A stretch of DNA of 42,204 bases from Candidatus Wildermuthbacteria bacterium RIFCSPHIGHO2_02_FULL_45_25 (GTDB taxonomy: Bacteria > Patescibacteriota > Minisyncoccia > Minisyncoccales > UBA10102). Of the stretch, positions 6,051 to 17,185 are shown piece by piece. The translations under genes and the position numbers were made by a program. Within the stretch, counting starts at the first letter, position 1. Every line of letters begins with the position of its first letter. The stretch is from NCBI GenBank assembly GCA_001823215.1, contig MHTV01000001.1:1-42204 (forward strand), read 5' to 3'. The notes beneath the pieces were generated by a model. It was given only the letters and a program-made list of their open reading frames with translations. It had not been told where the DNA came from and ran no database searches.

Positions 6051-6131
6051 AGAAATGGCTTTGTTAAGCGGAAAAGATACAAAGATCTCAAAAATGAGTA
6101 ATCCGACTTTTGGCTTAACAAAGCCATTTCT
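6051..6131. repeat. 19-bp perfect inverted repeat in the leader, abutting the first repeat
   Basis: AGAAATGGCTTTGTTAAGC (6051-6069) / GCTTAACAAAGCCATTTCT (6113-6131), with a small nested CTCAaaaaTGAG. Confidence 0.85.
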
Positions 6132-6262
6132 CCCTAGAGTGTTTTTATAAAGGCAAAGGTTTTCCACCGTTATATATTGAGTCTAAATTAATATCCACAC
6201 GCAATTTATACTTTATGCTTCAGTATAAGTTGTCAACGAACATCCATCAACATCTAATCTAC

Positions 6263-6296
6263 TCTACAAAAGTAGAAATTTTATATGGTATTAGAC
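6263..6296 (-). repeat. Solitary degenerate CRISPR repeat between cas2 and the array leader
   Basis: Plus strand TCTACAAAAGTAGAAATTTTATATGGTATTAGAC. It differs from the array repeat by loss of one G and of the terminal A (C instead). The crRNA handle stem is intact. Confidence 0.9.
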
Positions 6297-6316
6297 AAGA
6301 ATGTCCGGACCCGCCA

Positions 6317-8184: not shown

Positions 8185-8430
8185 TCATTTCGGGTGTTGC
8201 ATAATATCTATACAGTAATACATATCATCTTTAATAACAAAGTAGAACCTCCAATCCCTATTTACCCTCGCCTGCCAAATATTATGCGCCTCGTTATATT
8301 TCTTGGCATGAAGTGAGGGATGCCGCAAATCTTTGAGCAAGCAACGAATCTGTTTCTCGAAATCTTTTTGCACACGAGCTGGCGCAAAATGATACGATTT
8401 TCTAAAACGGTTTGTGTATAACGCCTTCAT
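8185..8430 (-). CDS. RelE/ParE superfamily toxin
   Basis: MKALYTNRFRKSYHFAPARVQKDFEKQIRCLLKD...NIWQARVNRDWRFYFVIKDDMYYCIDIMQHPK. Overlaps the upstream AbrB-like antitoxin. Confidence 0.8.
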   Translation of the reverse strand: MKALYTNRFRKSYHFAPARVQKDFEKQIRCLLKDLRHPSLHAKKYNEAHNIWQARVNRDWRFYFVIKDDMYYCIDIMQHPK

Positions 8431-8702
8431 TCAGAGTGAAGCGAGTTAATCATATCTTGCGCATTATCAAACGGTCCAGATACTTTTCCCTCATCAATAT
8501 CTTTTAATCCTTCTGCCAGTCGCTTTTCCATAAATGTGTACGGAGTCAAAACAAGCTTTTCTCTCTCTACCTTTATTTCAAGATAATCGCCCGCACCCAA
8601 ACGAAGCGCATCATAGAGCTTTTTTGGAATAGCTACCTGTCTACTTGATCCTATTTTTACCATACGAGAAACAACTTTGTTTTGAGAAGTTTTTGTTTTC
8701 AT
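8427..8702 (-). CDS. AbrB/MazE-like antitoxin (SpoVT-AbrB fold)
   Basis: MVKIGSSRQVAIPKKLYDALRLGAGDYLEIKVEREKLVLTP. Confidence 0.85.
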   Translation of the reverse strand: MKTKTSQNKVVSRMVKIGSSRQVAIPKKLYDALRLGAGDYLEIKVEREKLVLTPYTFMEKRLAEGLKDIDEGKVSGPFDNAQDMINSLHSE

Positions 8703-8729
8703 ATAATTATACTATATGATTGTTGAATC

Positions 8730-8831
8730 TTAGTCAATTATCTGTAGCTGATCTTCAACAAGTTGCATTGCCCGCTCTTTCCCCCGCAAATAGTCAATAA
8801 TCACAGGGGTCTCGATCAGATATTTCTTCAT
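8730..8831 (-). pseudogene. Truncated VapC-like PIN-domain toxin (33 aa stub)
   Basis: ATGA overlap with the upstream Phd-like gene. Translation MKKYLIETPVIIDYLRGKERAMQLVEDQLQIID*, which is PIN N-terminal motif I only. Confidence 0.7.
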
Positions 8832-9091
8832 AAATCTATTAGTGTCTTGCGTGATTTTTTCTTTTGCGCTTCCCGCCAGATATCACCATTGTCGAGAGAT
8901 GTGTCTTTCCAAGCGCCGGCAGATTTTTTCAAGCGTTTCTTTTTCTCTTCGGGAGACGCTTTGAGAATAGCGAAGGGCTCTCCTCCTTTTGTGAGAATCA
9001 AAGAATCTATTTCCGCAAGTTTTGCGGTAATCGCGCCAAAGTTGCGGCGAAGCTCTGTAATAGGGATAATCTTTTTTGAGGATGTCTTCAT
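8828..9091 (-). CDS. Phd/YefM-like antitoxin
   Basis: MKTSSKKIIPITELRRNFGAITAKLAEIDSLILTKGGEPFAIL. Confidence 0.8.
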   Translation of the reverse strand: MKTSSKKIIPITELRRNFGAITAKLAEIDSLILTKGGEPFAILKASPEEKKKRLKKSAGAWKDTSLDNGDIWREAQKKKSRKTLIDL

Positions 9092-9165: not shown

Positions 9166-12100
9166 TTATTCTTTTTGAGTGAATTTATCCCATTCTTCAA
9201 TACTGATGCTCAAATCTCCCCATCCCATTTTTTCCAAATTGCCATCGTTGTCCTTTTTAAACTGCTTAATCTTTTCTAGAATCATGATCCCTTTTCTAGC
9301 GATATTATAAGCTCCGTTAGCATCCCCATTGAATTCCTTTATATCCTTAAATCCTTTGCGTGAGTCAAATTCGCATTCCGGACACTGAATGTAATCGGTA
9401 TTTCTCCCAGAAATTGAATGCCGCGTTTCGGTAAGCAAAAACAACGCATATAAGAAATCTTTATAAAATTCTCTTCCGCGTGCAACAGATAAAATCTGCT
9501 CTCTTATGCCTCCATGCTCATAATCAATCTCATAGGTCTTTAATAATCCTTTTAGATACTCTGTGAGATTAAACTCTTTAACAACGCCCTTTTTTGTTTC
9601 GCTTTCATTTACTTCGCCCTTGTATTCATCAATACCGCGCTTTGCAACTTTTGCTTTTTCCGAGTACCGATCGTACCATTTGTAACGCAATGCGTTTTTT
9701 GTAGTCAGAATAAAAATATCTTTTTTTAGTGTTTTTGCATACAACTCGTTTGATACCTTCTTCTCTTTCTTTTGATCTTTACTAGATAACTTTTCTAAAG
9801 AGTAGCTGATTTGAAACACATCCTCTTTCTTATTATAATTAATAGACTCAAGATTTTCTATGAGTGTCTTTGCTTGTTCTATATTCTCAAATAGACATTT
9901 GATATTTCGTCTATAACCACACTCGGGACATGTTTTTGATGTATACCCAGCTTGAGTATAGAAAATGAGACCCGTTTGTTTCCCCATATCCTTAAAAGCA
10001 ATAACTGGCGCCGCCAATTGGTATGCTCTCAAGATATGACCTGTTTGTTTTGGATCTTCTTCTCCCTTTTTTACTAAGAAACTCAATTTATCTATAAGAG
10101 CGCGCTCCAATTGCTGATACGCACTTTTCTCAATACCACCTCGTATTTGTTTGAAACGCATATTCAAATCTTCAAACACGATAATGGCATTATGTTTAAT
10201 GATAAGATCAGCGAGGTTCCGTATCACCTGTGAAATATAACCTTTTTTGAGGTCTTTTATCGCTTCTACTTCTTCCCAATCTCGCCGTGAAGCTTCCCGC
10301 TCCTGCGCCCTTTTTTCCAATTTAGACGCATACTCAACTGGCTTGCCCCTGCCATCTTTCCCAATGGAATTGAGAGTATCTGTCTCAATGATTTTCCCAT
10401 TTTGATCAATTACAGAGTAATAGGCAAGATGCTTTTCTCCACGATCAACACCAATAATATGTACCCCGGGAGTACTACTTAGCACCTCTCGTATTTCAAC
10501 ATCCATTTCACGCTTTGTCTTACTTTCAGAAACACGATTGAGAGTAATCGGACAATGAAATAGAATAATGTCCTTAGCATAGCGTTTTCGATCTATAACC
10601 GCCCCGTCCTCTTTCTCCTTTGCCTTAACCCACTTCTTTTCGCCTGCGTCCCATACCTTATACCCAAGCCTTTTTTCTTCAGTTTTTGGCCGAAAGAATA
10701 ATTCAGCTTCACCGTTCAACTGAAATAAAAAGTTTTCTTGCTCGTTTTCCTTGCTGAATAATTGCTCAAAGTACAGCGTGTGCAGATTCTTTGTTCTTTT
10801 TCGATTTTTATCCATGGGACCCAAACTCCAATCTTTATTGTATATTTCAAAAAGAAATAATTCCCCATTATCATTTTTTTCTTTTATGTACTGCTCTGAA
10901 ATCGGAACAAAAGAAATATTATATGTAAGCGCATTGATGTCCTGATAGAAAGCGTCCAAAGATTCATATTCTTTTGCTTCTCTCAACCTAGAGTAATCAA
11001 AGATAGTCGTACTCTTATATGCCTTTAGGAAACGAATACAAAACTCTATCCACTGCGCCAGAGCTTGCTTGTATCCATTGTTATCTCGGCTTATCTCCAA
11101 ATACTGCCTTTGGAACTTCTTGACGCCAAGTTTCTTTTCGAAGTCATTCTTAGGGACAAACGATTCTTCAATATTATCCTTGCGATAGAAGACATTATTC
11201 AGTTCATATATATTCTTTGTGATTGCCACAGAAATTTTATAATCTTTCTCATGAAAAAGATTATAATCAGATGAAGACTTTCTAAAATGCTCCTTCACAT
11301 TTTTAGTTTGTGTTGAGCATTTTGGGATCATCTTTGACGCCTCCGGGAAAAATTTGTAGGCCATCTTCTGAAACGATCCGCTCTCTATACCCTCCGACAT
11401 CTCTTTTGAATAGCGATCGGCAAAAAGACTCTTACAATCTTCTTTTATTATCCCAAGATAATACCGGCCATCTTTTCTTAAAATGACCGCAGCGTTTGTT
11501 TTTTCTTTATTCTTGTCCCATCCATCCGCAAGAGTCGGATTTTCAAAACTTAATACCCACTTATTAGTATTGTATGGCTTCTTAGTAAGATAATTACGAA
11601 ATAAATTGTATGGGCGAACAATTTGTTCAAATGCATCGCGATAAAAATTCAAATATCCTATATCTGAAGATTTATAAAATCGATCGTCTAGATCATAGTT
11701 ATCCAACCAACCCCTTCTTTTCTCAACAGCAAAATACTTCGCTATTTGATAAATCAATAGCGTCGCATCTGCAAAATTTTTAATGGCTATCTTCTCTTCC
11801 AAATCAATAACTGGATTCTCGCGAGTAATTAACTCATTGATCTTTGTTACAAATATCTCATATCCAATTTTTGTTTGTTCTCCAGTTTGCGCGCTCGTGG
11901 TTTTACGAAAGAATTGCTGTTCAAGTTCAAACTTAAAAACGCACAAAAATTGCGTAAACACATCCTTAATCTTTTCGAAATCTACTATATCTTCATAATA
12001 TTCCCCTTTCCATATCCTCCCTTCCTGCTTTTCAAGAGCTCGCTTTATATGTGAACACTTTATAAAGTCAGGAAAAGAAAACTTGCCATCTTTATCGCTT

Positions 12101-13338
12101 ATCTTGGAGTCGTTTTTGTGTGTTCGTAATAATTCGTATACGAGTTTATTTTGCTTCTCTGCAACAACCGCAAACAAATCTCGTTCGAATGATTCAAAAC
12201 TTGCGAACCAACGGCTCGCATTATGACTGACTGCTTCCTTGGTTAAATAAATCTTATCAATATCATACCCGGAATAATCAGTTACAATATCTGCGATTAG
12301 ATTCCTAAAAGATTGGATCTTTACTTCTGCATTCTCATAGAATGTTTTTAATTTCCCTACAAGTTCCTTATTAGTCTCAATGCTCTCAATAAATGCCTCC
12401 TTCGCGCTATGAATCTGCTTATCGAGTTGCTTCAAAAATGGTATCTTTTCTCCGGAATTATCCTGACGATATTTATTTATCAGCTCATTTATACCTGGTA
12501 TTTTTTTATCTTTCTCGTCCACTTCGCCGCCGATGATTTTGTTATATGTGTCAATCCCACCCTGAAGAAGACATGCATTGTAGTATGCTAAAGAAAATAT
12601 GCCAGCGCATGAGATATCAAAGCTCTTCTCGACTTCAGAGAACTCAATTTTTTCTGATATTTTTTCGAATATCTGAATATTTTCACAAAATCGGCGGAGA
12701 TTTTGATTGATAACACGATAGGCAATTGCTGTTGAAGTATCGTCTGACTTGTAGAAGTTCTTCCGCGTTTCAAAAAATTTCTTGAAATAACCGGTCCATC
12801 TAGTCCATTCGTCAAAAATGTTATTTCCATCAACAGTTGTATCTTTTTCATTCTTAAATCGTTCTTTAAGAAGCCGGAATACACCAGCTTCAAACAGCAT
12901 ACCGAGACCCTCCTTTTTTATGCCGAGTAACTTGTATTGTTCACTCCTCACCCATATATTAGCAACCTCTTCAAAACGCCTCACAATCTCTTCGCGCAAA
13001 CCAACCTCTATCTTAACGAGTGTATCTTTCTTTTGCTTTGATTTTCTATCTTTTTGCCATGTCTGAAAAGTATCTTGATAGATTGCTAAATTTTTGAACT
13101 TAAAACTTTTTAGAGCATCTTCAATAAACTCACGGTGCAGTTGATCAAACCATGGTTTTACTGCTTCATATTTTTTTCGGCGCGTTTCGTCATTCTTTAT
13201 TACCTGTTCATCGTCCAACATCTTCGGTGTATTCAAAATTGGACGCAACTCAAACCGTAATGTTTTTGAAAGCTGATATTTCCTTGTAAAACCATCAAAG
13301 ACACTCCCCTCTTTCTTCTCTTTTGTATTATCTATCAT
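9166..13338 (-). CDS. cas12a: CRISPR-associated effector nuclease Cas12a (Cpf1), 1390 aa
   Basis: N-terminus YQLSKTLRFELRPI; PI-region SFENPTLADGWDKNKE; RuvC-I GVDRGEKHLAYYSVID; RuvC-II IVFEDLNMRFK; RuvC-III NGDANGAYNIARKG; CPECG...CPEC pair in the Nuc region. Confidence 0.98.
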   Translation of the reverse strand: MIDNTKEKKEGSVFDGFTRKYQLSKTLRFELRPILNTPKMLDDEQVIKNDETRRKKYEAVKPWFDQLHREFIEDALKSFKFKNLAIYQDTFQTWQKDRKSKQKKDTLVKIEVGLREEIVRRFEEVANIWVRSEQYKLLGIKKEGLGMLFEAGVFRLLKERFKNEKDTTVDGNNIFDEWTRWTGYFKKFFETRKNFYKSDDTSTAIAYRVINQNLRRFCENIQIFEKISEKIEFSEVEKSFDISCAGIFSLAYYNACLLQGGIDTYNKIIGGEVDEKDKKIPGINELINKYRQDNSGEKIPFLKQLDKQIHSAKEAFIESIETNKELVGKLKTFYENAEVKIQSFRNLIADIVTDYSGYDIDKIYLTKEAVSHNASRWFASFESFERDLFAVVAEKQNKLVYELLRTHKNDSKISDKDGKFSFPDFIKCSHIKRALEKQEGRIWKGEYYEDIVDFEKIKDVFTQFLCVFKFELEQQFFRKTTSAQTGEQTKIGYEIFVTKINELITRENPVIDLEEKIAIKNFADATLLIYQIAKYFAVEKRRGWLDNYDLDDRFYKSSDIGYLNFYRDAFEQIVRPYNLFRNYLTKKPYNTNKWVLSFENPTLADGWDKNKEKTNAAVILRKDGRYYLGIIKEDCKSLFADRYSKEMSEGIESGSFQKMAYKFFPEASKMIPKCSTQTKNVKEHFRKSSSDYNLFHEKDYKISVAITKNIYELNNVFYRKDNIEESFVPKNDFEKKLGVKKFQRQYLEISRDNNGYKQALAQWIEFCIRFLKAYKSTTIFDYSRLREAKEYESLDAFYQDINALTYNISFVPISEQYIKEKNDNGELFLFEIYNKDWSLGPMDKNRKRTKNLHTLYFEQLFSKENEQENFLFQLNGEAELFFRPKTEEKRLGYKVWDAGEKKWVKAKEKEDGAVIDRKRYAKDIILFHCPITLNRVSESKTKREMDVEIREVLSSTPGVHIIGVDRGEKHLAYYSVIDQNGKIIETDTLNSIGKDGRGKPVEYASKLEKRAQEREASRRDWEEVEAIKDLKKGYISQVIRNLADLIIKHNAIIVFEDLNMRFKQIRGGIEKSAYQQLERALIDKLSFLVKKGEEDPKQTGHILRAYQLAAPVIAFKDMGKQTGLIFYTQAGYTSKTCPECGYRRNIKCLFENIEQAKTLIENLESINYNKKEDVFQISYSLEKLSSKDQKKEKKVSNELYAKTLKKDIFILTTKNALRYKWYDRYSEKAKVAKRGIDEYKGEVNESETKKGVVKEFNLTEYLKGLLKTYEIDYEHGGIREQILSVARGREFYKDFLYALFLLTETRHSISGRNTDYIQCPECEFDSRKGFKDIKEFNGDANGAYNIARKGIMILEKIKQFKKDNDGNLEKMGWGDLSISIEEWDKFTQKE

Positions 13339-13383: not shown

Positions 13384-13501
13384 AAAAAAGGACGACGGTG
13401 ATCGCCCAATAGAAGAATGCTTACCAAACGGTTAAGCGCTACTGGCACCGTCGTCCTTTTTTAATCTCAAAGACGAGGTAAGCATATTCTATTTGGGCGA
13501 T
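13384..13501 (-). ncRNA. Putative structured leader/attenuator RNA upstream of cas12a (interlocking inverted repeats, ends in a T-run)
   Basis: Minus strand: ATCGCCCAAATAGAATATGCTTACC-N14-AAAAAAGGACGACGGTG-N20-GGTAAGCATTCTTCTATTGGGCGAT-CACCGTCGTCCTTTTTT. Preceded by promoter TTGCAT-N17-TATATT. Confidence 0.6.
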
Positions 13502-13507
13502 AAAATC

Positions 13508-13536
13508 AATATATCACATCAAACTCACTCATGCAA
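13508..13536 (-). promoter_or_regulatory. Predicted sigma70-type promoter of cas12a / leader RNA
   Basis: TTGCAT (13531-13536), N17, TATATT (13508-13513). Predicted start site ~13501. Confidence 0.55.
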
Positions 13537-13588: not shown

Positions 13589-13618
13589 AAAACCCCGCAC
13601 AAGCATTCATGCGGAGTT
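13589..13618 (-). terminator. Terminator of tpiA
   Basis: Minus strand AACTCCGCATGAATGCTTGTGCGGGGTTTTGTT. Confidence 0.65.
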
Positions 13619-16078: not shown

Positions 16079-16094
16079 AAAAGGCAATCGCGTG

Positions 16095-16225
16095 AAGAGT
16101 AAAATGGTTTTTTCGGCATCTGCTTGAAGAACCTTGCGAGCTTGACTGAAGCGAGCACGAGGAATTTTCTAGTAAGAAAATATCCGTGTTCTTCAAGCAG
16201 ATGCCGAAAAAACCATTTTACTCTT
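16095..16225. repeat. Foldback element, copy D (variant): perfect 38-bp inverted arms around a ~55-bp core
   Basis: Arms AAGAGTAAAATGGTTTTTTCGGCATCTGCTTGAAGAAC at 16095-16132 and 16188-16225 (perfect). The core shares TTGxGAGCxxGACTGxxGCGAGC...GAGGAA...ATATCCGTGTTCT with copies A-C. Confidence 0.85.
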
Positions 16226-16230
16226 TACAT

Positions 16231-17022: not shown

Positions 17023-17185
17023 CTTTGAATTACGAAACAAATAACATATAAGGTTCAGAGAACGTTGGGAGCGCGACTGGCGCGAGCCCCTCACCGCAAG
17101 GTGGAAGGGGGAGCACCAGGAATTTTTCAGCAGAAACATATCCGTGTTCTCAAAACCTTGTATGTGCTGGTTTCGCAATTCAAAA
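17023..17185. repeat. Foldback element, copy A (~163 bp)
   Basis: CTTTGAATTACGAAAC...GAGAACGTTGGGAGCGCGACTGGCGCGAGCCCCTCACCGCAAGGTGGAAGGGGGAGCACCAGGAATTTTTCAGCAGAAACATATCCGTGTTCTC...GTTTCGCAATTCAAAA. Confidence 0.9.

Follow-up and report, generated by a model that had tools for sequence, protein, structure and literature searches.

Intrinsic transcription attenuators that work with an antiterminator include the trp, pyr and ribosomal-protein leaders, the expression platforms of riboswitches and the leaders of pT181-type plasmids. CRISPR-linked RNA controls include long-form tracrRNA and crRNA-like self-repressors; we know of no RNA attenuator for cas12a. The control of CRISPR nucleases and integrases in CPR bacteria is largely unknown. 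In a type I-F system, PhrS acts in trans on the array, through termination in the CRISPR leader (PMC6700203). Here we analyse the window, the whole 42,204-nucleotide stretch of DNA given above, and propose that the leader of its cas12a gene is likely to be a bistable transcription attenuator. The proposal rests on sequence comparison: there are no RNA data, and the trigger, ligand and binding protein are unidentified.

Two crossing inverted repeats precede cas12a

The presumed controlled gene, cas12a (9166–13338, minus strand; 1,390 aa, with Pfam REC1, RuvC_1, NUC and Cpf1 PI domains), shares its locus with cas4, cas1 and, in the position of cas2, a short ORF. The locus also has a 23-repeat array, and the 3′ end of the repeat is of the Cas12a type. 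The upstream tpiA gene has its own terminator-like hairpin, seen directly near 13615–13590. All parts of the leader lie on the minus strand. Putative −35 and −10 hexamers, TTGCAT (13531–13536) and TATATT (13508–13513), are spaced by 17 nt and followed by the B arm (13477–13501), whose first base would be the transcript 5′ end (+1 at 13501). Next come E5 (TCGTCTTT, 13469–13476), whose partner in the predicted read-through fold is the terminator-stem 5′ strand AAAGGACGA (13459–13451), and the A arm (13446–13462), which supplies that 5′ strand. D5 (CCAGTA, 13440–13445) has its partner TATTGG (13411–13406) within B′, and the C hairpin (GCTTAACC-GTTT-GGTAAGC, 13419–13437) forms the apical part of the predicted terminator fold. 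Last come the B′ arm (13401–13425), contested by B, C and D, and the A′ arm with T6 (13384–13400), the 3′ strand of the terminator stem.

The preliminary description, drawn from the letters alone, had reported two inverted repeats: a perfect one of 17 bp that ends in T6 (A/A′) and, crossing it, a near-perfect one of 25 bp (B/B′). Both were verified at their coordinates; in B/B′ about 23 of the 25 bases pair, with one bulge per strand and one mismatch (76% ungapped). The cas12a ATG, at 13338, is 45 nt from the T-run and not 46 nt as given there. The leader is single-copy in the genome of the window.

Several other features of the window were recorded alongside the leader. On the minus strand at 6051–6131, a perfect 19-bp inverted repeat (AGAAATGGCTTTGTTAAGC / GCTTAACAAAGCCATTTCT) lies in the array leader and abuts the first CRISPR repeat. 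A lone degenerate CRISPR repeat (6262–6300, minus strand) sits between the ORF at the cas2 position and the array leader, and the spacer-like stretch that follows it has no match in the cas12a leader. The region between cas12a and cas4 (8185–9091, minus strand) encodes a MazE-like antitoxin and a weak, below-cut-off match to a ParE-like toxin, with a Phd-like ORF recognized by eye at 8828–9091 (minus strand). At 16092–16228, the arms of a 41-nt inverted repeat (98% complementary) are 55 nt apart and do not match the RNA model of the leader; a 40-nt stretch at 16153–16192 is repeated at 17111–17150 (83%).

The leader recurs before genes for DNA-acting enzymes

Cas12a relatives were gathered by scans of genome contigs and of the order, and comparative searches found the crossing arrangement at 33 other Patescibacteria loci. 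The downstream genes are cas12a at 12 of these, large serine recombinases at 15, restriction–modification (R-M) methylases at 3, a nuclease at 1 and other genes at 2. The preliminary description had suggested looking for the arrangement upstream of cas12a in relatives; it is present there at 13 loci, the window included. That description had treated the leader as one of cas12a. On the comparative evidence the element is not cas12a-specific, as genes for large serine recombinases and for R-M methylases also have it upstream.

Five loci (L024, L028, L017, L018 and L019) carry the same element 5′ of cas12a, with the common core GACGGTTCCA..GCTTAACCGTTTGGTAAGC..TTGGGCGAC..CCGTCGTCC-T5. R1, a covariance model that describes the terminator fold and was used to find further genomes, gave matches directly before cas12a in G510, G344, G363, G451, G539, G445 and G780. 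Four weaker R1 matches (L053, L062, L063 and L064) have the same crossing architecture and stand before serine-recombinase-like proteins; of their short N-terminal stretches, three have a Pfam Resolvase domain and the fourth, L064, was too short to score and is called by its sequence. R2, a covariance model built from 17 loci without B, added nine loci from the order to which G852 belongs. Downstream of these are serine recombinases (L068, L070 and L074, the last by sequence likeness only), N6_N4 DNA methylases of the type III Mod kind (L071 and L072, the latter again by likeness only), an N6_Mtase/VRR-NUC protein (L069), an SNase, which is a secreted SNase-like protein (L075), and two other genes (L073 and L076).

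In a class sample of 384 genomes, 16 carry the leader; it stands 5′ of cas12a in 7 of them and 5′ of a serine recombinase in the other 9. These counts describe the sample, not prevalence. Serine-recombinase and methylase assignments throughout rest on Pfam or sequence likeness, and the recombinases of L084–L091 were named by likeness except that of L085. The leader is always directly 5′ of a same-strand gene, its T-run 3–109 nt before the start codon. Cas12a was absent from the 24 other genomes of the window's family. Phage and plasmid DNA had no similarity to the leader beyond chance, and viral contigs contained no cas12a relative, no exact match to the core and no relative of a large serine recombinase from a leader locus.

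Distribution of the leader among cas12a loci

Eighteen genomes of the class sample have cas12a, of which 17 could be tested for the leader; G032 was left out because its sequence begins 43 nt before the match. The leader is present in 7 and absent in 10 of the 17; type V-A function can thus do without it. Apart from this sample, 17 genomes behind other cas12a loci gave no match at E ≤ 0.01. At two of the ten loci without this leader (L103 in G255 and L111 in G551), cas12a is preceded by a crossing B-A-B′-A′ leader of unrelated sequence; both of its helices are significant (p = 0.002), and its B arm duplicates the opening codons of cas12a (ATGACCACACA). On a Cas12a tree built on the N-terminal 470 residues, which has some long branches, well-supported branches force at least four changes in leader presence. 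The leader has been gained or lost repeatedly, and this patchiness suggests a portable cassette.

Comparison supports selection on RNA pairing

Shuffling done locus by locus gives p ≤ 0.01 for each of the two crossing helices in the 17-locus set. R2 does not include B, and B:B′ pairing in the loci found with it is therefore an independent check; here p = 0.005 in each of the 17 later loci. Given the recurrence at 33 loci and these shuffle tests, the crossing arrangement is not due to chance.

Across the 17-locus alignment, 96.3% of the 491 cells of helices A, D and C are paired and 13 pairs have two-sided changes; the covariation score is 0.323 versus 0.194 for shuffled alignments (none of 500 shuffles scored as high), and slid versions lower the paired fraction to 33–57%. 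Helix A is paired in 98.6% of cells over the 17 loci, with two-sided changes in six pairs, and helix D in 95%, with such changes in three pairs. Helix C is paired in 91.7%, and its sequence is highly conserved within the cas12a group. Among the same 491 cells, 50 are G-U and none is A-C; DNA would accept both mismatches equally, so it is the sense-strand RNA that is under selection.

The B arm is kept in 34 of 34 loci. In B1, 293 of 306 pairs are standard over the 34 loci, and two-sided changes occur at all nine positions, affecting 74 cells versus a shuffled maximum of 33; B1 registers were picked for best pairing, which somewhat inflates the pairing figure. At L050, B′ is altered to TATCGAGCGAC, and both of its partners, D (TCGATA, pairing with TATCGA) and B (GTCGCTTGATA), are altered to match. 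Support for hairpin E, which lies over the A arm, falls short of that for the other helices: by shuffling it is significant in the window leader and in only about 7 of 17 loci. Comparison shows that the helices exist and are conserved, and the compensatory changes proposed as a test in the preliminary description do maintain both crossing helices.

A promoter is held in register with the B arm

Across the 34-locus set, a −10 hexamer of the sigma70 type begins at −12 from B: the mean match to TATAAT there is 4.53 of 6, versus 1–2.6 at other offsets from the first base of B. The mean match to TTGACA peaks at −35, and in most of the 34 loci the −35 element starts 35 nt 5′ of B. We infer that transcription would start at B's first base or no more than about 2 nt from it, a tolerance set by six loci in which the B helix starts 1–2 bases inside the excised sequence. 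The TTGCAT-N17-TATATT promoter noted in the preliminary description is present, and the start site that it had placed at 13501 gains support from this fixed register, a matter of sequence only.

The leader may adopt two mutually exclusive folds

For 32 of 34 leaders, a lower energy is predicted for the B:B′ fold than for the terminator fold (median difference, 8.8 kcal/mol); in the window leader the predicted difference is only 2.7 kcal/mol. These are equilibrium values, not co-transcriptional kinetics. Pairing of the 5′ strand often extends beyond B1′ to the apical loop, even where loop sequences are unrelated. On sequence evidence the leader has three properties of an intrinsic attenuator: an upstream promoter with its putative start before the structure (the −10 in fixed register), a GC-rich hairpin with a U-run after it and ahead of the start codon, and a conserved alternative fold that excludes the terminator. 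Termination and read-through in the cell, changed by a signal, would be the fourth and are inferred only.

As an attenuator, the leader would be transcribed from 13501, or from within 2 nt of it according to the promoter, and the emerging RNA would take one of two exclusive folds. In the ON fold, B (often extended) would pair with B′ and the apical loop region, and the A arm would be taken up in the small hairpin E; A′ would be left single-stranded and polymerase would continue into cas12a. In the OFF fold, the A:A′ stem, with D and C in its apex, would form directly 5′ of T6 and the transcript would end after about 118 nt. Helix switching, termination and an outcome that sets the Cas12a level are inferred. 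Since the ON fold is predicted to be stabler and could form before A′ is made, a factor able to hold on to the C/D hairpin or to sequester B would turn the gene off. Candidate contact sites, inferred only and without binding data, are a recurring YUUUGG-like apical loop and, in the cas12a group, the conserved C hairpin; were the leader a riboswitch, this hairpin would be the candidate place for a small-ligand aptamer. The terminator/antiterminator interpretation put forward in the preliminary description is supported to this extent, transcription and termination themselves being inferences.

Alternative explanations

Conservation of both crossing helices would also be expected if B:B′ and A:A′ formed together in a stable pseudoknot, the other possibility raised in the preliminary description, and A:A′ with B1 alone (about 10 bp) is sterically possible. 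However, 8 of 9 loci checked have an A-to-B′ linker that does not reach far enough for the full B helix to lie alongside A:A′, and B1 contends for the same bases with D, which is itself conserved. For these reasons exclusive folds are preferred: the competing-helices part of the earlier suggestion stands, and the complete two-helix pseudoknot, sterically unlikely, has very little to recommend it. Still less credible is a role for the repeats in DNA, whether as an attachment site for a recombinase or as a small mobile element with inverted repeats. Such a role would suit the many copies that adjoin serine recombinases and the patchy occurrence on the Cas12a tree, but it leaves the G-U bias of the helices and the promoter in register with B unaccounted for; the single copy in the window's genome, where an inverted-repeat mobile element should have several, also speaks against it.

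Two further readings accept a transcribed RNA. A stand-alone small RNA of about 118–166 nt with its own terminator could act in trans, for example on Cas12a, the recombinase or other RNAs, with the downstream gene transcribed mainly by leak or from another promoter. The defined start and terminator are in keeping with this, as is the strong conservation, within the cas12a group, of the C-hairpin primary sequence. We nevertheless consider it unlikely: the leader never strays from its position directly before a same-strand gene (a second promoter between terminator and ATG was not systematically sought), and a simple small RNA needs no two conserved exclusive folds. We give slightly less credence again to a constitutive damper, in which a fixed fraction of transcripts terminates and potentially harmful DNA-acting enzymes are kept at a low basal level without sensing. 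The presence of the element before nucleases, recombinases and methylases alike, and the lack of a conserved leader ORF or identified ligand site, would fit a damper. A plain weak terminator would be enough for that purpose, however, and the long compensating 5′ strand and the competition of D and B1 for the same nucleotides would be superfluous.

The bistable attenuator remains the reading that we favour. Its occurrence before large serine recombinases and R-M methylases as well as cas12a would make it a portable cassette by which Patescibacteria control DNA-acting genes, and one transferable RNA cassette in these positions suggests common control of genome-altering enzymes. It is possible, though we doubt it, that the leader is a shared Patescibacteria-wide RNA sensor through which one factor or signal is read before CRISPR nucleases, recombinases and R-M genes; the cue might be, for example, entry of foreign DNA, the cell cycle or host contact. 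If so, immunity and DNA rearrangement would be switched together. The leader is in any case a concrete, testable RNA, and as a compact natural switch it is a possible object for studying the control of Cas12a expression.

Comparison with known RNA regulators

The window leader and those of 13 other loci, recombinase and R-M ones among them, have no match at gathering score in Rfam release 15, and at a relaxed threshold only chance-level matches appeared. No earlier description of such a leader RNA was found in the open-access literature, a coverage that mostly excludes subscription journals and preprints. From its predicted features, we conclude that the leader is a previously undescribed RNA class of a known kind, which probably decides whether the downstream genes are transcribed.

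Two known types of control were considered and set aside. A leader-peptide attenuator should have a conserved short ORF, and the 34 leaders do not: 12 have no ATG, and ORF positions are not common among leaders. With no leader ORF shared, attenuation of this type is disfavoured. Nor does the leader qualify as a crRNA-like self-repressing RNA. It is unlike the CRISPR repeat, and no spacer of the window's array, including the one after the degenerate repeat, matches it beyond chance, which disfavours crRNA-type self-repression.

With the CRISPR-linked RNA controls the leader would share regulation of CRISPR–Cas at the RNA level, and with PhrS a route through termination (PMC6700203). Unlike them, it is not repeat-like and would act in cis on the effector gene, not on the array. 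Its closest likeness is to intrinsic attenuators, which in general have a promoter, mutually exclusive leader folds and a hairpin with a U-run before the start codon. It differs from those listed at the outset in that it has no conserved leader-peptide ORF and no known ligand or protein, that its B arm would begin at +1 or no more than 2 nt away, and that its predicted antiterminator strand spans to the terminator loop and flank.
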